From Microbispora corallina (lineage in GTDB: Bacteria; Actinomycetota; Actinomycetes; Streptosporangiales; Streptosporangiaceae), in contig NZ_BOOC01000014.1 in assembly GCF_016863035.1 (NCBI RefSeq), positions 186,001 through 250,000 of the forward strand: 64,000 nucleotides of DNA, read 5' to 3'. Under the pieces are notes generated by a model, which was not told the origin of the DNA, made no database searches, and saw nothing but the letters and a program-made list of their open reading frames with translations. Every line of letters begins with the position of its first letter. Position 1 is the first letter of the stretch. Below are positions 55,916 through 64,000 of this stretch, piece by piece. The position numbers were made by a program, and so were the translations under genes.

Positions 55916-56886
55916 CGCCCCTCCTCTCGCCGTACCTCCGCAGGGATCTTGTCCGCCCGCACGCCCCGCCACACAGGGTTGCGCAGCCGCCCGTCTCGGG
56001 TCCACATCGTGAAGGCGACCTCTCCCACGATCTCCGGACGCACCCACCGGGCGTCCTTGCCGACTGCCCGCGGAAGCTCGTCAGAGAAGGCGCTCTGCCC
56101 GATCTCGAGCGGTTCAAGCAGGCGGCGGGTGTCGTCCAGCATCGCGTCGGTGAACCCGGTGCCCACGTGCCCCACAAAGAGGAACCCGCCGGGGGACGGC
56201 CGCCCGGCAAGGGGCGGCCCGGTGTACACGCCGACCAGGAGTGAGCCGACGCCGCCCGCCCGGCGTCCCTTCCCGGGCTTCCAGCCGCCGACCACCACCT
56301 CGGCCGTCCGCAGGTTCTTGACCTTGACCCACCACTCCGAGCGCCGTCCCGGCCGGTACGGCGAGTCGAGGCGCTTGGCCACCACCCCCTCCAACCCCTG
56401 CATCCGGGTCGCCTCCAGCACCTCGGGCTCACACGGGAAGTTCGGCGGCACCGCGAGCCCGAGCGAGTCGAGCAGCGCCCTCCGCTCGCCGTACGGCACG
56501 TCGAACAGCGTCCGCCCGTCGAGGTGGAGCAGGTCGAACGGCATGTACGTGACCGGGAAGTGGTCGAGCAGCCGCGAGCCCGCCGGGTCGGTGTTGTGCA
56601 TGCGGCGCTGCAGGCGGGCGAAGCTGGGCCGCCCCTGGAGATCGAAGGCCACCACCTCGCCGTCGATGACCGCCCTGCGGCCGGCCAGCGGGCCCGCGAG
56701 GGCGCCGATCTCCGGGTAGCGCGCGGTGAAGTCCGCGCCGTGCCGTCCGGTGACCCGGACACCCCGGTCGACGTACGCGATCGCCCGGATGCCGTCCCAT
56801 TTCACCTCCAGGGCGTACGCGTCGCGCGCCTGGGGGAGCTCGCCGGGGATCGCCAGCATGGGTTCAACCGGGTACGGCACCGCCAT
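55912..56886 (-). CDS. ATP-dependent DNA ligase, LigC/LigD-ligase type
   Basis: A 324-residue ATP-dependent DNA ligase. The adenylated lysine is K29 in EVKWDGIRA (K-x-D-G); RHGADFTARYPE, DGEVVAFD (motif III, about 76), EGVVAKRLDSPYRPGRRS (motif IV) and WWVKVKNL (motif V) follow, then the OB-fold with GHVGTGFTDAML. It seals ends held by Ku. ATG 56886 overlaps an inverted repeat in the divergent promoter region. Confidence 0.9.
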   Translation of the reverse strand: MAVPYPVEPMLAIPGELPQARDAYALEVKWDGIRAIAYVDRGVRVTGRHGADFTARYPEIGALAGPLAGRRAVIDGEVVAFDLQGRPSFARLQRRMHNTDPAGSRLLDHFPVTYMPFDLLHLDGRTLFDVPYGERRALLDSLGLAVPPNFPCEPEVLEATRMQGLEGVVAKRLDSPYRPGRRSEWWVKVKNLRTAEVVVGGWKPGKGRRAGGVGSLLVGVYTGPPLAGRPSPGGFLFVGHVGTGFTDAMLDDTRRLLEPLEIGQSAFSDELPRAVGKDARWVRPEIVGEVAFTMWTRDGRLRNPVWRGVRADKIPAEVRREEGR

Positions 56887-56929
56887 AGTGGGTACCTGCC
56901 CATGAGGTAAGTCCCTTGAATCCCACTAT
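56885..56929. promoter_or_regulatory. Inverted repeat between ligase and ku
   Basis: ATAGTGGG (56885-56892) and CCCACTAT (56922-56929) are perfect arms 29 bases apart, with an inner dyad TACCT/AGGTA (56893-56897, 56905-56909). The left arm touches the ligase start codon. It could bind a shared regulator of the divergent NHEJ genes. Confidence 0.45.
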
Positions 56930-56963
56930 AGCCGCATTCGAACAAAGAGACGAGAATGTAGTT

Positions 56964-57914
56964 ATGCGCAGCATCTGGAAAGGCGCGATCTCGTTCGGTC
57001 TGGTCACGATCCCGGTGAAGCTCTACTCGGCGACCGAGCAGAAGGACGTCTCGTTCCACCAGGTGCACCGGGAGGACGGCGGCCGGATCAAGTACAAGAG
57101 GGTCTGCACGGTCGACGGCGAAGAGGTGCCGTACTCCGACATCGCGAAGGGGTACGAGCTGGCGACCGGCGAGATCGTGGTGCTGACCGACGAGGACTTC
57201 GCCGACCTGCCTCTCAGCACGTCCCGGCGGATCGACGTGCTGCAGTTCACCCCCGTGGAGCAGATCGACCCCATCTACTTCGCGAAGTCGTACTATCTGG
57301 AGCCCGACGGCCAGGGGGCCAAGCCGTACGTGCTGCTGCGGGACGCCCTGGAGCGCTCGGGCCAGGTCGCGATCGTGAAGGTGGCGCTGCGGCAGCGCGA
57401 GTCGCTGGCGACGCTGCGCGTGCGCGACGGCGTGTTCGTGCTGGAGACGATGCTCTGGCCGGATGAGGTGCGCGAGGCGGAGTTCCCGTTCCTGGAGGAG
57501 GACGTCGACGTCCGGCCCCAGGAGCTGAAGATGGCCGAGTCGCTGATCGACACAATGGTCGCCGACTTCGACCCCGCCGAGTACAAGGACGCCTACCGCG
57601 AGGCGCTGCAGGAGGTCATCGAGGCCAAGGTGGCCGGCCGGGAGGTCGTCGCCGCCGAGGCCCCGGCCGAGCAGGGACCCGCGGTGGACCTCATGGCGGC
57701 GCTGCGCGCGAGCGTCGAGGCCGCCAAGCGGGAGCGCGAGGGAGCGGGCGCGGGCCGCGCGGCCGGCGCGGCCGGCGCGAAGAAGAAGGCCCCGGCCAAG
57801 CGCGCGGCCGAGGCGTCGGAGGAGAAGCCGGCGGCCAGGAAGGCGGCCGCGAACGGCGCGGACGAGGACGAGAAGGCGCCCGCCCGCAAGCGCAAGACCC
57901 GCCGCTCCGCCTGA
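56964..57914 (+). CDS. ku: Non-homologous end-joining protein Ku
   Basis: A 316-residue bacterial Ku homodimer subunit that encircles DNA ends and recruits the polymerase and ligase. MRSIWKGAISFGLVTIPVKLY is the family start; the bridge and core regions with VEQIDPIYFAKSYYLEPDG, MLWPDEVREAEFPF and MAESLIDTMVADFDPAEYKDAYREAL (about 190-215) follow. The last 60 residues are a Lys/Ala-rich basic tail as in many actinobacterial Ku proteins, which adds DNA binding. ATG 56964. A strong hairpin lies 74 bases after the stop. Confidence 0.95.
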   Translation: MRSIWKGAISFGLVTIPVKLYSATEQKDVSFHQVHREDGGRIKYKRVCTVDGEEVPYSDIAKGYELATGEIVVLTDEDFADLPLSTSRRIDVLQFTPVEQIDPIYFAKSYYLEPDGQGAKPYVLLRDALERSGQVAIVKVALRQRESLATLRVRDGVFVLETMLWPDEVREAEFPFLEEDVDVRPQELKMAESLIDTMVADFDPAEYKDAYREALQEVIEAKVAGREVVAAEAPAEQGPAVDLMAALRASVEAAKREREGAGAGRAAGAAGAKKKAPAKRAAEASEEKPAARKAAANGADEDEKAPARKRKTRRSA

Positions 57915-57987
57915 CGGTCCGGGGGTCTGCCGCTGCTGCCGCGGGGGTTGTGGGCGTGTGCCCTCGCGGATCTCCCGTGTGTCGAGA

Positions 57988-58016
57988 AGCTCCGGCGGAC
58001 GGTGTCCGCCGGAGCT
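57988..58016. terminator. 13-bp hairpin between ku and the secreted-protein cluster
   Basis: AGCTCCGGCGGAC (57988-58000), loop GGT, GTCCGCCGGAGCT (58004-58016): a perfect 13-bp stem, 74 bases after ku and 184 bases after the end of the convergent minus-strand gene. Probably a bidirectional terminator. Confidence 0.8.
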
Positions 58017-58199
58017 CCGTTCTCCTCCGTGGTCTCCGCGCCCCCGAGTGCGGTTCCTGTTCCGGAGAGCGTCACGAGGCCGGGCGTCCCGATGTCCCCT
58101 ACCCCCGGCCGCCGTTACCGACAGCGGTCGAGGCGCACCGGGCCCCACGGTCTCCACGCTCCACGGCCGGTGGCGCGGAGGTCATCGCGGTCTGCTCCG

Positions 58200-58493
58200 T
58201 CAGTCGGCGTCGTTGTCGATGTCGACGATCGTGTCGCCCGTCGAGCGGTTGCCGCTGCGGACGCCGACAAGGGCGGTCTGCACGGTCTTGCGGAACCGCC
58301 GCTCACTGCGGAAGTGGTCGAACCGGTGGCAGCGACGCCAGGCGCCGCCGTGACCGTTGCCCCAGCACGAGGCGACCGTGGCAGTGGTGGCGCTCGCGGC
58401 GCTCGCACCGGTGGCGGCGCTCAGGGCGACAGCCCCGCCGGTCAGGGCCGTGCTGATGGCCAGGCCCGCGATGACGTTCCGGAAAGTGGGCAT
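58200..58493 (-). CDS. Small secreted protein 1
   Basis: A 97-residue secreted protein. The signal peptide MPTFRNVIAGLAISTALTGG with AVALSAATGASAASA is closely related to those of the other four small secreted proteins in this cluster. The mature part (about 62 residues) has SCWGNGHGGAWRRCHRFDHF with two Cys, then TALVGVRSGNRSTGDT and an acidic end. It lacks the long Asn/Gln-rich runs of its neighbours, but LVGVRSGNRS may correspond to their GFQDKT core; this match is weak. ATG 58493 has a GGAGG site. Upstream lies the shared promoter/leader block. Confidence 0.7.
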   Translation of the reverse strand: MPTFRNVIAGLAISTALTGGAVALSAATGASAASATTATVASCWGNGHGGAWRRCHRFDHFRSERRFRKTVQTALVGVRSGNRSTGDTIVDIDNDAD

Positions 58494-58528
58494 TGCGTGT
58501 CCTCCTTGAAAGGATCGATTGCCCGACA

Positions 58529-58661
58529 TGACATTTCCCAATTGAGCAGAAATGTCACTGATAGCCCTTAATGAGCTATCTCTCCCGCGATGTCTTGATT
58601 GCCGGATTCGCTGGGCGACAAACGGGACGAATCACCCCTTTAGGGGTTGTTGTCCGTTTGT
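58529..58661 (-). promoter_or_regulatory. Conserved upstream block and leader stem-loops of secreted gene 1
   Basis: On the plus strand: stem 2 TGACATTTC/GAAATGTCA (58529-58537/58549-58557); stem 1 GATAGC/GCTATC core (58560-58565/58575-58580), 8 pairs in RNA with ATTAA loop; TGTCTTGATT (58591-58600); 17 bases; ACAAACG (58618-58624); and a further CCGTTTGT at 58654-58661. Genes on this strand are read right to left, so the leader RNA would contain stem 1 then stem 2 before the ribosome binding site. Confidence 0.6.
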
Positions 58662-59372
58662 GGTGGGATCCGAGAGGAGAAATGCGACGTTTGTACCGTT
58701 ATGTCCGGTTTGGTGTCACGGTGCGAGCCCCTGAGGCCTGGCGGCCGAAGGCCCAACCTACCGGCATCAGCCCGTCCGACGCCTTGAAACGGCCCGGAGA
58801 GGTCAGTGCCGGAGTGTGCTCACGTCGGCTCTCATGCGCCCAGGTCGTGATCTTCACCCGCACCCGTCGCCGGCCTGCTCGGTGTCGTCGAGGCCGGGAC
58901 GCGGCGTGGGCGGTCGGATCGGAGCGACCTCACTGGAGGGCGGGTGGTGGGGAGACGTTCGGAGGGCGCGCCTGGGCGGGTGGTGATCAGGGCGGCGCGC
59001 ATCGGGGCCCGTCAAGGCGGCGGGAATTGCAGGCGACGGAGCGACGGGCTGCGCCGGGGGGAGGTGAACGGCGGGCTGCGGCGCGGGCTGTCGGGGGCGC
59101 CGGCGGGTGGCGGGCTGTGCGGGTCGTGGGTCGCTGCGGGGGTGGACAGGCCAGGGCCCCGGTGGAAGAGCTTCCACCGGGGCCCCTGCCTCTATGCCCT
59201 GTACTGAATGTCCGTCCCGACTGGGAGGGGGTGTGGAGGGGCCGGTGCTCCCGGTTCCCCGTCACCGCCTCGTCAACGGCGCCGGGTCCTCGCGAAGCGC
59301 GGTCCCTCTCGCCTCCCAGCCGGTCTGCGCATGGCTACGGCTCATTCACGAAGGCCGTCAAGGTCTACTGGT
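58662..59372. other. Gene-poor stretch between secreted genes 1 and 2
   Basis: No convincing gene is seen in about 700 bases. It contains a strong hairpin near 59149-59190 (arms GGCCCCGGTGGAAG and CTTCCACCGGGGCC with AG between), lying about 180 bases beyond the end of secreted gene 2. Plus-strand frames here have no recognisable product. Confidence 0.5.
59149..59190. terminator. 14-bp hairpin downstream of secreted gene 2
   Basis: Perfect 14-bp arms GGCCCCGGTGGAAG / CTTCCACCGGGGCC separated by AG, within 59149-59190, followed on the plus strand by CCTGCCTCTATG. A similar hairpin followed by CTCTATATATG occurs at 61791-61830. Confidence 0.65.
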
Positions 59373-59768
59373 TCAGTTGCAACCGTTGCAGTCGTTGTTG
59401 TTGTTGTTGAACCAGTTGCAGTCGTTGTTGTTGAAGCAGTCGTTGTTGTTGAACCAGCAGTTGTTGTTCCAGCAGTCGTTCCGACTGGTCTTGTCCTGGA
59501 AGCCGATGCAGACATCCTTGGTCGCGATGGCGAAGGACGAGTTGTCGTCACGGCAGCTGTTCCAGCAGTTGTTGTTCCACCAGCAGTTGTTGTTGTTCCA
59601 GTTGCAGTTGTTGTTGTTCCAGCAGTTGTTGTTGTTGTTGTTCCAACATGGGCTGCCGCAGTTGCTGGTGGGGATGGTGCTGGCACTGGCCGCGGAGGCG
59701 CCGAGAGTCATGGCGCCACCAACGATGGCGGTGCTGAGGGCGATACCGGCGAAGACCTTCTTGAACAT
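59373..59768 (-). CDS. Small secreted protein 2, Asn/Cys/Trp-rich
   Basis: A 131-residue secreted protein of very unusual composition. The signal peptide (MFKKVFAGIALSTAIVGGAM, cut near ASAAS) precedes a body of WNNNNC-type repeats with about 14 cysteines and more than 40 asparagines. The repeats are interrupted by one ordinary segment, SSFAIATKDVCIGFQDKTSRND (about 76-97; first 20 residues conserved), which matches a segment in secreted protein 3. The Asn codons are nearly all AAC. It may form a Cys-crosslinked or metal-binding surface polymer; that is speculation. ATG 59768. Confidence 0.72.
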   Translation of the reverse strand: MFKKVFAGIALSTAIVGGAMTLGASAASASTIPTSNCGSPCWNNNNNNCWNNNNCNWNNNNCWWNNNCWNSCRDDNSSFAIATKDVCIGFQDKTSRNDCWNNNCWFNNNDCFNNNDCNWFNNNNNDCNGCN

Positions 59769-59812
59769 GGGTACTGCCTTTCTGTGAAAGGTGGTACTGC
59801 CACTGAATTCTT

Positions 59813-59831
59813 GACATTCCAGAAGAATGTC
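59813..59831 (-). promoter_or_regulatory. Leader stem-loop of secreted gene 2
   Basis: GACATTC (59813-59819), 5-base loop, GAATGTC (59825-59831), 45-60 bases before the ATG. It corresponds in sequence and place to stem 2 of the other leaders (ACATTTC/GAAATGT). The ACAAACG/TGTCTTGATT block is not present here, so this gene is probably transcribed together with secreted gene 3. Confidence 0.5.
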
Positions 59832-59867
59832 GAGAGAGAGGTACTACGACGGGCCGTCAGGCCAGTT

Positions 59868-59932
59868 GACTGCTTTGCTTAACTGCTTTGCTTAACTGCT
59901 ATGCTGAACCGCTTTCCTGGACTGCTTTTGCC
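59868..59932. repeat. Five 13-bp tandem repeats between secreted genes 3 and 2
   Basis: GACTGCTTTGCTT, AACTGCTTTGCTT, AACTGCTATGCTG, AACCGCTTTCCTG and GACTGCTTTTGCC run in register from 59868 to 59932, ending close to the stop of secreted gene 3 (59943). Confidence 0.8.
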
Positions 59933-59942
59933 GAGCTGCTAC

Positions 59943-60386
59943 TTACTTGTGCTCGACGTCCTTCTCCTTGTCGAACTGGCGGTCGTTGTCCCGGTCGTCC
60001 CGGTTCCACCAGCGGTCATCGTTGTTGTTCTGGTGGTCGTTGCGGTCCCACCAGTTCTGGTTGTTCCAGAAGTCGTCCTTGTCGGTCTTGTCCTGGAAGC
60101 CGACGGCCACGTCCTTGGCGGCGATGCCGAAGGCCGAGTGGTCGGTCTTGTCGAACTTCCAGTTGTTCTGGCCCCACCAGTTGTTGTTGTCGCGCAGCCA
60201 GTTGCGGTTGTTGTTCCACCAGTCGTTCTTGTCGCGGTCGGACTGGTTGTCGGCGTGGACGTCCCGCTCGGTGTTCTTGTCGTCCTTGGTGCCTGCGCTG
60301 GCCGCGGTGGCACCGACGGCGAGAGCGCCGCCCGCAAGCACGGTGCCGAGTGCGACGCTGGCGAGGACCTTCGTGAACATGGGCAT
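59943..60386 (-). CDS. Small secreted protein 3, Asn/Trp/Asp-rich
   Basis: A 147-residue secreted protein. The signal peptide MPMFTKVLASVALGTVLAGG with ALAVGATAASA is followed by a charged segment and by W/N repeats (DWWNNNRNW, NNNWWGQNNW, FWNNQNWWDRND, RWWNRDDRDND). Between them lies SAFGIAAKDVAVGFQDKTD (about 84-102), the counterpart of the segment in protein 2. No cysteine is present, unlike protein 2. ATG 60386 has GGGGGGAA upstream; ATG 60380 is possible. The shared promoter/leader block lies upstream. Confidence 0.72.
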   Translation of the reverse strand: MPMFTKVLASVALGTVLAGGALAVGATAASAGTKDDKNTERDVHADNQSDRDKNDWWNNNRNWLRDNNNWWGQNNWKFDKTDHSAFGIAAKDVAVGFQDKTDKDDFWNNQNWWDRNDHQNNNDDRWWNRDDRDNDRQFDKEKDVEHK

Positions 60387-60422
60387 TGAGTTTCCCCCCA
60401 AGTTTCTGCCCCGAATTCCCTA

Positions 60423-60533
60423 ACATTTCTCCGAACTGCTGAGAAATGTAGTCATGGCCCTCTAATGGACCATGTTCCTGCGCTGTCTTGATTTCCGGGG
60501 CCGTCTGGCTACAAACGAGGATCACAGGCTTTT
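60423..60533 (-). promoter_or_regulatory. Conserved upstream block and leader stem-loops of secreted gene 3
   Basis: Plus-strand order: stem 2 ACATTTCTC/GAGAAATGT (60423-60431/60441-60449); stem 1 CATGGCCC/GGACCATG (60453-60460/60467-60474), whose C-A mismatch becomes a G-U pair in the gene-sense RNA; TGTCTTGATT (60484-60493); 17 bases; ACAAACG (60511-60517); 9 bases; GGCTTTT (60527-60533). The motif TTATCGCTTTAT follows near 60543. Confidence 0.65.
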
Positions 60534-60589
60534 GATCGCTTATTATCGCTTTATGGGAAGCCTTAGACAGTTAATGACGGCTTTGTAGC

Positions 60590-62102
60590 GGTATGTCCGT
60601 TTTCTCGAGTCGGGACGAAGCTCGCATGCCGTATGCGGCGGGTGTATCTGGGTCTCCGTCCGCCGGCCTCCGGCCTCGTAGGGCGGTCACAAAGACGGCC
60701 CTGTCGGCGTGCTGCCGCCAGTACAGGGCCGAGAACGGCCCGGCGGACAACTCGGCCGCGAAACGGTGGCGAAACGCGCGTGCGGGATGTGAAAAGCCGC
60801 TCGCGTGAAGCGCCGGGCGCCGGAACAGGACTTCGGCCGGAGGCGGAAGTCGCGACGGGATCGCGCGACTCTGCCTGAAACCCGGCGGGAATGCGGCCCC
60901 GGGCATCCAGCCGAGACGGCGGGAAACGGCGCGCCGGCAGTCGTCGAAAGGACGCCGACGCCGAAAGGCGCTCGAGGGCGCTGAAAGGCCGTACAGGGCA
61001 CGAGGAAGCCCTGGAGGTCTCCGGCAGTCATGCCGGACGTCCCCCGTCCCCAGACGGCCACGCAAAGCCGCGCGAGACGGCGTGAAGGCCACGCCAGAAG
61101 GCGTGAGCGCGCCGGCGCGAAGTCCACACCGGAAGGCGCGACGGCGCAAAGGGCGACAGCGTGAAGGCACAGTGGGACGGCGCGACGGCACAGTGGGACG
61201 GCGCGACGGCGCAAAAAGCGCGGACGGCACCGCGAAAACGGTGTGAAGACCCCGCGGGACGGCGTGAAGCCAGCTCCCACGACGGCACCTCAGTGGGGGG
61301 CCGCTCACGTCGAGCAGGCGCGGGCAGCCGTTGCAGGGCGGCCGCCGTGAAGTGCTCGCACGCCGGCCACGCGCGGCCGGCCACGCGCGCCACCACCGAA
61401 GCCGTTGAAGAGGCTCGAGGACGTCTCCGGCGCGGCCGCACGCCGCTGGACGGCGTGGCCCAGCGGCCGTTGCGCCACCCGGAGCCGGTGGAAAGCCCGT
61501 GACATCCCCGGAGCCGCGAAAGGCGAATGACCCCCACCGGGAGTCGGTGAACGCCCGAGAGGCCGCCGCGAGCCCCTGGAAAGCCACACACCGGCGGACA
61601 CCCTGCCCGCCGCCGCGCGGTGCCGGCCGAGCCGGTGAGAAAGCTCATGAGGGCCGTCGGGAAGGCGCCGCCGGACTCGTGGAAAGCCGGCGAGGCCGAG
61701 GTACGCCCGAGGACCGCCGCGGGACCTGCCGGGATCGGGGCCCGGCGTCCGCGACGCCGGGGAGCACGGTAGAAGGCGGAAAGGCAATGGGCCAGGACTC
61801 CGGGGGCGTCGCCCGCCGGAGTCCTGGCCTCTATATATGTGCAGCGTCCCGACACGGGCTCCCGGTTCGGTGAGGAGCCGTACCGCGGGGGCGCTTATGG
61901 GTGGTGCTCGATCAGGTCCCGGCCGGTCTCGGCCGTGACGGCTCTCACGGACGCCGTTCCGGTCCACAGGACCGGAGACGGTCACCCGTCATGCGTACTC
62001 ACTCACATCAGGGCCGGTGAGGCCCTTGGGACAGCCGGCGGACGGCTGGCGAAACGTGTCGCCGGAGGCGACGGAACCGCGTGACGGACTACGGCACGGC
62101 GG
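60590..62102. other. 1.5-kb stretch without recognisable genes
   Basis: Long open frames exist on both strands, but none has a recognisable product and all are explained by high GC. The DNA shows scattered GAAAGGC/GGAAAGCC motifs every 15-60 bases and a 20-bp direct repeat (CACAGTGGGACGGCGCGACG at about 61168 and 61188). A hairpin lies at 61791-61830. It may be decayed sequence, a spacer or an RNA-coding region. Confidence 0.45.
61791..61830. terminator. 14-bp hairpin downstream of secreted gene 4
   Basis: GGCCAGGACTCCGG (61791-61804) and CCGGAGTCCTGGCC (61817-61830), loop 12 bases. It lies 273 bases beyond the stop of secreted gene 4. On the plus strand it is followed by TCTATATATG, so it could instead end a rightward transcript. 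Confidence 0.7.
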
Positions 62103-62633
62103 TCACTGGACCCCGGCGCCAGGCTTGACGGTCACGGTCACGGTCACGGTCGGCCTCGGAGTCACGACGGTCGACGGGTCGTTGTTGTTCTCGGGCTCCG
62201 TCTGCTGGTCCTGACGCGGTTCGGACGCCGTGTTCGTCCACTCCTGCTGGTTGTTCCGCGGGTGCACGCTGGCGTCCGTCTGCTGGTGGTTCCACGGAAT
62301 CGCGGCCGCGGAGTTCTCGGCCTTCTGGAACGGCGTGAGCACCAGCGTGAAGTCCCGCATGAGGAACTGACGCTGGTTCTGGTACTGCCGTCCGTGCTGG
62401 TGCTGCTTGTTCTTGTTCTTGGCCTTGGAGCCCTGGCCCTGCCGGTTGGACGCCACAGGGTAGTAGCTGCGGATGTAGTGGCGCGCGACCGGGCGGCCGC
62501 CCCCGACGTTGCCGCCCATCACCGTGGCGGCGCTCGCGGAGGTACTGGTGACGGCCGTGCCGAGAGCGACGGCACCGCCGGTCATGGCGGCGCTCACAGC
62601 GAGGAGGCCGACCAGGTTCTTCATCGTGGACAT
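62103..62633 (-). CDS. Small secreted protein 4, Gln/Asn/Lys-rich
   Basis: A 176-residue secreted protein closely related to protein 5. Signal peptide MSTMKNLVGLLAVSAAMTGG with AVALGTAV, then ATVMGG, a Tyr/Arg segment, NRQGQGSKAKNKNKQ, RQYQNQRQFLMRDFTLVLTPFQKAE (about 92-116, the conserved core), a Gln/Asn-rich part and a C-terminal TVTVTVTVKPG run encoded by alternating ACGGTCACC-type codons. ATG 62633 has GGAGAG upstream. Confidence 0.72.
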   Translation of the reverse strand: MSTMKNLVGLLAVSAAMTGGAVALGTAVTSTSASAATVMGGNVGGGRPVARHYIRSYYPVASNRQGQGSKAKNKNKQHQHGRQYQNQRQFLMRDFTLVLTPFQKAENSAAAIPWNHQQTDASVHPRNNQQEWTNTASEPRQDQQTEPENNNDPSTVVTPRPTVTVTVTVKPGAGVQ

Positions 62634-63127
62634 GATGCTTCTCTCCTTGAAAATGCTCGCCCCCGCCCGGCGGGTCCGCCGTCGTGCCGGTTGTCCCGGG
62701 ACGCCGGACGGCGGATGCGGGCCCCCTCCGGAGCACAGTCCGTGAGGAGAAGGACGCACGGCGGACCGCGCGTGAGCGTGAGGGCGTGTACTGCCGCCGC
62801 GTGCGACGCGGCGCGAACACATGGCGTGATGCCGAGGGCCCGCCACCGGACGACCCGGAGGCGGGCCACGGCTCGGATCAGACGAGTGAGCGCCGCGGGT
62901 GCCGCGCCGGCCCGCCGTGGACACCAGTCGCCGCGATGTCGTGCGCGGGACGAGCGGCCCCCCTCAGCAGGGCCTCCGCGCACGGGCGTCCGCGCCCGCC
63001 CGAGGTTCACCGTCACCCGGAAGGACCAGGGTCACGGGCGGGCGCTGACTCCCTTCTCATCGCGTCACTCCACGGCGTCGGGGCCGTTACGGCCGTTCAG
63101 GCGGCTGCTCGGCCCGGTCTCCCCGGA
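62634..63127. other. Gap between secreted genes 5 and 4
   Basis: A 494-base stretch. It holds a perfect hairpin TCCGCCGTC/GACGGCGGA (62675-62683/62707-62715) upstream of gene 4, different from the leader stems of the other genes. No ACAAACG/TGTCTTGATT block and no gene are seen; gene 4 may be served from the promoter of gene 5 or by an unrelated one. Confidence 0.5.
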
Positions 63128-63637
63128 TCAGGGGACCATGGGCTTCGCGGTCACCGTCACGGTCACGGTCGGAGTCGGCTCGACCTTCTTCGACGGGTCG
63201 TTCTCGTTCTCCGCCTCGGCGTCCTGCTTCTGCTTCGGGTTCGAGCGGGTGTCCGTCTGCGAGTCCTGGCGGTTCCACGGCTGCGCCCGGGTGTCGGAGG
63301 CCTGCCAGTTGTACGGCAGGGCCCGCGAGTCGGTCTCCGTCTTCTGGAACGGCGTCAGGACCAGGGTGAAGTCACGCAGCAGGAACTGGTGCTGGTTCTG
63401 GTGCTGGCGCTCGTGCTGCCACTGCTTGTTCTTGTTCTTGTTCTTCGTGCCCTGGCCCTGCCGGTTGCTCAGGCGCGGGTAGGCACGGCTCACGTAGGAG
63501 GGGCCGCCGACGTAGCCACCCATGACGGTGGCGGCGTTCGCGGAGGTCGCGGTCACCACGTTGCCGAGGGCGACGGCGCCACCGGTCATCGCGGCGCTGA
63601 TCGCCAGGACCCCGACGAGGTTGTTCAACTTGGGCAT
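63128..63637 (-). CDS. Small secreted protein 5, Gln/Asn/Lys-rich
   Basis: A 169-residue secreted protein, paralogue of protein 4. Signal peptide MPKLNNLVGVLAISAAMTGG with AVALGNVV and ANAATVMGG, then SNRQGQGTKNKNKNKQ, RQHQNQHQFLLRDFTLVL and TPFQKTE (about 81-108, conserved core), ALPYNWQAS, a Gln/Asp/Asn-rich part and the terminal TVTVTVTAKP. ATG 63637 follows AGGGGGAAATGAA. The shared promoter/leader block lies upstream. Confidence 0.75.
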   Translation of the reverse strand: MPKLNNLVGVLAISAAMTGGAVALGNVVTATSANAATVMGGYVGGPSYVSRAYPRLSNRQGQGTKNKNKNKQWQHERQHQNQHQFLLRDFTLVLTPFQKTETDSRALPYNWQASDTRAQPWNRQDSQTDTRSNPKQKQDAEAENENDPSKKVEPTPTVTVTVTAKPMVP

Positions 63638-63674
63638 TTCATTTCCCCCTAAGGATTTCTGCCCCGACACTCCG

Positions 63675-63785
63675 GCACTTTCCAAACAACCAGGAAAATG
63701 CCCTTTCTGACGACCCTTACGGATCATCCCTGCATTGTCTTGATTTCCTCGCCGCCCAAGGGACAAACGGCGATCGGCGGCTTTT
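63675..63785 (-). promoter_or_regulatory. Conserved upstream block and leader stem-loops of secreted gene 5
   Basis: Plus-strand order: stem 2 GCACTTTCC/GGAAAATGC (63675-63683/63693-63701); stem 1 GACGACCC/GGATCATC (63709-63716/63721-63728); TGTCTTGATT (63736-63745); 17 bases; ACAAACG (63763-63769); 9 bases; GGCTTTT (63779-63785). The mismatches on this strand (one in stem 2, two in stem 1) are all C-A and become G-U in the gene-sense RNA. TTATCGCTTTAT follows near 63796. Confidence 0.65.
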
Positions 63786-63789
63786 GCCA

Positions 63790-64000
63790 TCCGCTTATCG
63801 CTTTATTGACGAGGTTGGACGGCTACTGCTCACTTTGCTCGGAAATGTCATTCTTGTCGCATTTGAAATGTCCGAGTATGGGTGATTTGGCCGTTCCGTC
63901 GGAACCGTTGAATGCCGGGTTCGCGGCCCTCGCCATACGCATCAATGGGCCGTACGGCATCGGCCCGGCCCATCCCGGGTAGCGGGTGCGTCCGGCCGCC
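63790..64000. other. Right edge of the window
   Basis: No gene is recognised. The stretch is less GC-rich than the rest, as expected of an upstream regulatory region, and contains a second ATGTC/GACAT-like dyad near 63845-63873. Confidence 0.35.

Follow-up and report, generated by a model that had tools for sequence, protein, structure and literature searches.

Secreted-protein genes and their upstream elements

The window considered here is a stretch of 64,000 nucleotides from Microbispora corallina, a member of the Streptosporangiaceae (contig NZ_BOOC01000014.1, positions 186,001 to 250,000), and it holds five genes for small secreted proteins, here numbered 1 to 5, three of which are preceded by the same succession of a promoter element and two hairpins. 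All of the genes carrying these leaders lie on the minus strand. In gene sense, the order upstream of genes 1, 3 and 5 is CGTTTGT, 17 bases ending in GGM, AATCAAGACA, a first hairpin (P1), a second hairpin (P2), the Shine-Dalgarno (SD) site and ATG, and read on the plus strand the motif is TGTCTTGATT-N17-ACAAACG. Exact copies of the motif (gene sense CGTTTGT-N17-AATCAAGACA) occupy positions 58591-58624, 60484-60517 and 63736-63769; they are separated from stem 1 by 10, 9 and 7 bases, and the gap between the stems is 2, 3 and 6 bases, for genes 1, 3 and 5, respectively. The exact motif copies and the measured gaps confirm the constant order and spacing that the initial annotation had described at these genes.

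All of the window features given below are on the minus strand. Gene 1 (58200-58493) encodes a family secreted protein of 97 amino acids. Its -35 element, CGTTTGT (58618-58624), is an exact match and fits the GTTT of SigB-family promoters as described in PMC8346170, and it is followed by the -10 and start block GGCAATCAAGACA (58591-58603), P1 (58560-58580; 8 pairs, one of them G-U), P2 (58529-58557; 9 pairs) and the SD site AAGGAGGA (58500-58507). Gene 3 (59943-60386; a family secreted protein of 147 amino acids) has its CGTTTGT at 60511-60517, the -10 and start block GGAAATCAAGACA at 60484-60496, P1 at 60453-60474 (8 pairs, one G-U), P2 at 60423-60449 and the SD site GGGGGG at 60394-60399. 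The corresponding elements of gene 5 (63128-63637; family secreted protein, 169 amino acids) are CGTTTGT at 63763-63769, GGAAATCAAGACA at 63736-63748, P1 at 63709-63728 (8 pairs, two G-U), P2 at 63674-63702 (10 pairs, one G-U) and GGGGG at 63645-63649. For the remaining two genes no promoter copy of their own was found. Gene 4 (62103-62633), a secreted paralogue, lies downstream of gene 5, and gene 2 (59373-59768), encoding an Asn-rich family secreted protein, lies downstream of gene 3. Upstream of gene 2 there is a P2-like hairpin, GACATTC-TTC-TGGAATGTC (59813-59831), with a folding z-score of -2.53 for positions 59766-59860. The mature part of the gene 2 product is of low complexity, with Asn runs together with Cys and Trp (NNNNNNCWNNNN).

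Distribution, protein family and promoter form

The shared promoter element proposed in the initial annotation extends well beyond the window. At up to three mismatches, the motif occurs in the 8.36 Mb genome of the organism only at the three window sites and at one further site (C3:641621), and the reversed-pattern control gave no match. A covariance model of the leader, R1, which spans the ribosome-binding site (RBS) and ATGCCC, yielded two additional matches in this genome (C35:83336 and C52:48323), both upstream of family genes. Within the genus, all 15 genomes match the motif at up to two mismatches, and all 15 have R1 matches at E <= 0.001, with 4 to 7 copies each. Three members of the genus are identical to named Microbispora contigs over the 600 nt surrounding the motif. 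In the Streptosporangiaceae, R1 matches were obtained in 42 of 150 sampled genomes, representing 15 of 68 genera, with up to 12 copies per genome, while in a sample of the class they occurred in 6 of 246 genomes, all six being Streptosporangiaceae; the family and class searches used stricter filters, by which weak matches may be lost. The exact degenerate motif was found in 45 stretches of named records, 40 from Streptosporangiaceae (Microbispora, Microtetraspora, Planotetraspora, Sphaerisporangium, Streptosporangium and Sphaerimonospora) and 5 from unrelated bacteria. At up to two mismatches it is present in 89 of 200 genomes; since the control columns of that count are not zero, the distribution rests on R1. 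In Microtetraspora and relatives (loci L104, L173, L077 and L080), about 6-8 leader copies lie on one strand within 8-9 kb, as tandem family genes each with its own promoter and leader. At about position 1500 of locus L032, the sequence past a promoter copy is unrelated to that of L021 and is followed by no family gene, as if one of the two species had undergone an insertion or rearrangement.

Promoter matches are closely associated with a family of secreted proteins. Among the distinct matches at the collected loci, a family signal-peptide gene lies downstream of 60 of 65 exact matches, 11 of 13 with one mismatch and 15 of 29 with two, and the five exact matches without such a gene are those in the five unrelated bacteria. 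The signal-peptide profile was built from the proteins behind R1 matches, and is therefore partly circular on R1 matches and less so on promoter matches. The 188 distinct R1 leaders have an ATG at the expected place in 185 cases, 184 of which encode the family signal peptide, a count that is partly built in because R1 itself holds the RBS and ATGCCC and the profile derives from the same set. Among the proteins listed, the signal peptide is approximately MPKxKxxxAGLAxSTALTGGAVALGA, and the mature parts are very different in sequence and, by eye, often rich in Gly, Asn, Gln or Trp. The five window proteins have no match in Pfam or NCBIfam above the cut-off. The C3:641621 site precedes a Cys-rich peptide of 46 residues that is not a family member, and its leader scores 23.5 bits with R1. 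The same promoter stands before two Cys-rich peptides with CxC/CxxC repeats, one without (L006, C3:641621) and one with (L164, C35:83336) the family signal peptide; by eye, both appear metallothionein-like.

The promoter has the form GTTTGT-N14-GGMAAW. In 186 aligned rows, which were selected for GG at the expected first two -10 places, GTTT and GGnAA dominate, the -35 GTTT and the spacer of 14 are present, and at the third -10 place A (152 rows) far outnumbers C (23) and G (6). The SigB-family form is given in PMC8346170 as a GTTT -35, a spacer of 12-15 and a GGGnAn -10, with GTTTGC-N14-GGGCAA (SCO5332p) and GTTTGC-N14-GGGTAG (SCO1276p) among the listed examples. The promoter described here resembles this form, its -35 and spacing agreeing with the SigF/SigH/SigN type: as in the SigB-family (SigF/SigH/SigN group) promoters of Streptomyces coelicolor covered there, it has a GTTT -35, a spacer of 14, a GG-rich -10 and A at the fifth place. 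It differs from them in its third -10 base, mostly A or C where theirs is an almost invariant G, and in having a long conserved block after the -10 and phased A-tracts upstream. Two SigBFG sigma-factor genes score above the cut-off in the genome of the organism, which shows only that candidates exist.

The phased A-tracts upstream of the -35 element do not figure in the initial annotation. Counted over a non-redundant set of 117 upstream regions, AA steps have their maxima near -68, -48, -38, -28 and -17 relative to GTTT. The best period is 10.25 bp over about 60 bp, with a power of 0.41; the highest value among 1000 row-shifted nulls was 0.018, and the region further upstream gave 0.0007. In the window, the A-rich stretch lies at 63770-63837 for gene 5 and 60518-60585 for gene 3, and by eye is weak at gene 1. 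The gene 3 stretch contains three AAGC copies exactly 10 bp apart. Such phasing suggests a curved region, an UP-like region or head-to-tail activator sites.

Folding and covariation of the two hairpins

The leaders are more strongly folded than expected, and the excess is confined to P1 and P2. The RNA folds of the window leaders of genes 1, 3 and 5 have z-scores of -3.57, -3.04 and -2.71 against 200 dinucleotide shuffles each. From 107 pattern matches, 27 were set aside (at least L015, L025, L052, L073 and L074 among them preceding family genes) and L025 was restored, which gave 81 leaders, or 57 after removal of near duplicates. In these 57, the P1 and P2 stretch has a mean z of -3.34 against dinucleotide shuffles, with z below -2 in 48, and the last 44 nucleotides (nt), covering SD and start, have a mean z of -0.29, not beyond shuffles. 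A fixed window over P1 reached p <= 0.05 in 60 of 122 representative leaders, where 6 are expected, and a control window did so in 1 of 122. The fixed P2 window, where 12 of 122 had p <= 0.05, lay too far downstream, and a sliding window takes its place; there the mean z of the 122 representatives has minima at leader positions 6-52 (P1, -1.97) and 42-88 (P2, -2.25) and, from position 54 onward, over SD and start, keeps within -0.17 to 0.17. The loops are hardly conserved (0.63 bits for P1, 0.25 bits for P2), and the distance from the GG block to codon 2 has a median of 121 nt, with extremes of 72 and 142, in 188 leaders. In leaders of the MSKLH group (L008, L010 and L023), the predicted folds have two further elements near the stretch that precedes the SD site, a local hairpin UUCAG-loop-CUGAA and a pairing of GACAG with CUGUC.

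Compensatory changes were counted in several alignments. The sequence-only alignment, A1, which also served as the seed of the covariance model, comprises 44 of the 57 leaders; the 13 left out by eye are near relatives in the MSKLH group, Sphaerisporangium-type leaders and odd leaders. In A1, both sides have changed in 67 cells, against 31.5±4.7 in shuffled data and 20-38 with the partner slid. A model-fitted alignment of 119 distinct rows gave 314 both-side changes against 99±14.6 shuffled, and a second one of 84 distinct rows (78 of them outside the seed A1, 69 outside the other fitted alignment) gave 209 against 65±12.1. Under a tree-aware null, in which substitutions are re-placed on the tree (120 of the 122 representatives, 300 null runs each), P1 shows 145 changes against 61.6±14.2 and P2 177 against 55.9±15.8. 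When the same kind of null is applied to the sequence-only alignment, P2 still stands out (43 against 18.1±7.3, a value reached in 3 of 500 runs), and P1 does not (24 against 18.5±6.8, reached in 113 of 500 runs). By eye, P1 is out of register in that alignment, so that its case rests on the shuffle test and the fitted alignments and is the weaker for it. Folding and covariation thus support both hairpins, P2 more firmly than P1. The structured leader proposed initially is sustained by the shuffle tests and by covariation, with the tree-aware null on sequence-only alignment upholding P2 and not P1. The larger set of homologous leaders carries compensatory changes, and the absence of such changes, which had been named as grounds for abandoning the proposal, was not encountered.

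The leader belongs to no known class among those searched, as the initial annotation had supposed for riboswitches. A search of Rfam with window positions 56000-64000 (E <= 5) returned 10 matches, none at its family cut-off and none on a leader, and 17 loci totalling 107922 bases had no family at the gathering cut-off. Among the open-licence PubMed Central papers listed in literature searches, none has a title or opening of the abstract that names this leader or promoter. A conserved alternative pairing masking the SD site or start codon was found neither by the swap test nor by the sliding window, where z is about 0. A third helix, GGGCA:UGCCC, which would mask the start codon, seems convincing in single folds and was rejected: the SD region folds no better than shuffled sequence, and the swap test does not support the helix, with GGGCA present in 97 of 185 leaders and only 6 of 16 TCC starts having their own complement. 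For a second candidate, a GGRR/YYCC helix upstream of the SD site, the gain is very small; it scores above all 500 swaps, yet only at 3.49 against 3.39 (130 distinct pairs). An intrinsic terminator or attenuator was also rejected, as TTTT occurs within 12 nt past P2 in only 2 of 188 distinct leaders.

Interpretation of the module

Our preferred interpretation, which we consider about equally likely to be right or wrong, is that a stress- or sporulation-type promoter stands before a 5' leader of two hairpins, which would protect the mRNA while keeping the ribosome site accessible, and that the two form a conserved expression module for a lineage-specific family of Streptosporangiaceae secreted proteins. 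In this scheme, each gene or gene pair would be under a promoter that has the SigB-family form and, upstream of its -35, A-tracts recurring once per DNA turn; a sigma factor of that family would presumably recognise it, and the DNA upstream may be bent. Transcription would start at approximately GACA, and the 5' leader of about 100 nt would fold into P1 near the 5' end and then P2, with the SD site and start codon calculated to remain outside conserved structure. By analogy with known 5' hairpin stabilisers, the most likely role of the hairpins is to guard the 5' end against decay and to insulate the ribosome site; the mRNA would then be long-lived and well translated, as suits proteins that are abundant at the cell surface or associated with spores. 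The hairpins fill the leader from just past the putative start to about 30-40 nt before the ATG; this placement, the hardly conserved loops and the open SD and start region together fit the look of a protective, insulating 5' leader.

Whether selection acts on the RNA strand or on the DNA was judged from the deviating pairs and from folding of the two strands. The initial annotation held that every deviating stem pair is a G-U in gene-sense RNA; this is true of the three window leaders and does not hold across the family, where A-C is also frequent. Counted as events on the tree of 188 leaders, G-U to A-C stands at 65:54 for P1 and 88:56 for P2, in total 153 to 110 (combined p = 0.0095), and in aligned columns of 44 leaders at 24:31 and 46:25. 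In symmetric ungapped stems of 57 leaders, G-T to A-C is 26:24 for P1 and 26:23 for P2, a rough scoring in which stems may overrun the true helix, as at gene 3. The P1 and P2 stretch folds to a lower energy in sense than in antisense in 72 of 122 leaders and to a higher one in 48 (p = 0.016). A further observation comes from the 236 family genes, 64 of which are without a strong promoter match and 29 without even a weak one (24 after removal of near duplicates). The upstream regions of these promoterless genes have a mean z of -1.43 (n = 24), against -0.39 for 36 control genes, themselves the output of a crude chooser of open reading frames (p = 0.005), and 8 of the 24 fall below -2; structured upstream regions of promoterless family genes, gene 2 among them, are only suggestive as further support for selection at the RNA level. 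Among promoterless MSKLSNIMGVLA genes, a long, strong hairpin of different sequence lies upstream of the RBS at position 2319 of L039 (z -5.76) and position 5640 of L087 (z -3.34), in gene-sense coordinates.

A number of results weigh against the proposed promoter and RNA leader. The G-U excess is small, and for P1 alone (65:54) has p = 0.36. In the 57 leaders, sense folding of P1 and P2 is lower in 35 and higher in 22 (p = 0.056), the SD region is stabler in antisense (34 versus 21, p = 0.033), and over the leader as a whole the two strands do not differ (p = 0.83). GU pairs in predicted folds are not enriched in sense (187 versus 213, p = 0.16). In addition, the covariance-model alignments are fitted to structure, and P1 does not exceed the tree-aware null on sequence-only alignment. 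As to the promoter, the SigB-family -10 is normally GGG, with the third base here mostly A or C, and the stretch conserved past the -10 is longer than a promoter alone requires. Taken together, the G-U excess, the sense-fold bias and the contrary strand tests modestly favour the view that selection has acted on P1 and P2 as RNA.

The near equality of G-T and A-C counts in the ungapped scoring and the mildness of the folding difference between strands (p = 0.056 and 0.016) would suit an improbable alternative, in which P1 and P2 are DNA-level inverted repeats serving as transcription-factor operators and their hairpin look is accidental. The P2 core ACATTTY..RAAATGT is also rather conserved. 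However, arm sequences vary while pairing is kept, unlike the operator of one protein; P1 folds of Planotetraspora and Microtetraspora leaders contain one-sided bulges, and in the three window leaders the repeats sit between promoter and RBS. The palindrome ACATTTY-N9..13-RAAATGT, the one pattern tried in exact form, has only two sites in the genome of the organism, both in these leaders, those of genes 1 and 3. P2 was rejected as a transcription-factor operator in view of this restriction and of the compensated variation of its arms. That the leaders resemble each other through recent gene duplication alone, the hairpins being functionless, is very improbable: the genes are indeed paralogues with a common signal peptide, promoter and RBS, but pairing is kept as the arms diverge, beyond the tree-keeping null (for P1, not on the sequence-only alignment), and the hairpin windows exceed shuffles where neighbouring windows do not.

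The main rival of the protective leader is a site for a regulator: a protein, small RNA or metabolite would bind P1 or P2 and, at one developmental stage, switch how the entire secreted family is translated or how stable its mRNAs are. We regard this as unlikely, albeit a reading with several facts in its favour, in that the same leader stands before many paralogues, with up to 12 R1 matches per genome, the start block is conserved past the -10 and leader length is rather constant (72-142 nt around the median in the 188 leaders). Against it, loops and unpaired stretches from the start block to the RBS segment show little sequence conservation, the SD and start region is not structured beyond shuffles (mean z about 0), the start-codon helix GGGCA:UGCCC is unsupported by the swap test, and the helix upstream of the SD site gains only the small margin given above. 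A bolder version, somewhat more doubtful still, is that P1-P2 constitutes a new class of regulatory leader RNA with a dedicated RNA-binding factor, providing post-transcriptional control of a diversified secretome as a unit in sporulating Streptosporangiaceae, atop a curved SigB-family promoter.

The protective leader has precedents in other bacteria. The ompA and aprE genes encode exported products. As described in PMC3997798, hairpins near the 5' end are established as mRNA stabilisers in Escherichia coli and Bacillus subtilis, and the ompA leader of the former and the aprE leader of the latter, like the one described here, have one or more hairpins at or near the 5' end followed by the ribosome-binding site, the transcript 5' end being a predicted one in our case. 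They differ from it in that the present pair of hairpins is repeated in front of the members of an entire paralogous family, in 15 of 68 sampled genera. The module appears to combine a SigB-type promoter with a structured 5' leader and to be a new form, limited to this lineage, of a known type of element for mRNA control or stabilisation. As for the proteins, the chaplin surface proteins of Streptomyces, also a spore-forming actinomycete, are likewise small, secreted and present as several paralogues in a genome. The rodlin surface proteins of the same genus (PMC5314377) share this likeness with the family described here, and the window proteins differ from chaplins and rodlins in lacking a Pfam or NCBIfam match above the cut-off.

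With the module, a family of secreted proteins that neither Pfam nor NCBIfam names, as tested for the five window members, becomes a coherent candidate regulon in Microbispora, Planotetraspora, Streptosporangium and related soil bacteria. The covariance model and the promoter pattern allow further members to be found. The module also makes it possible to ask, in testable form, which sigma factor and developmental stage switch these genes on, and whether paired 5' hairpins act as mRNA stabilisers for the surface proteins of actinomycetes.

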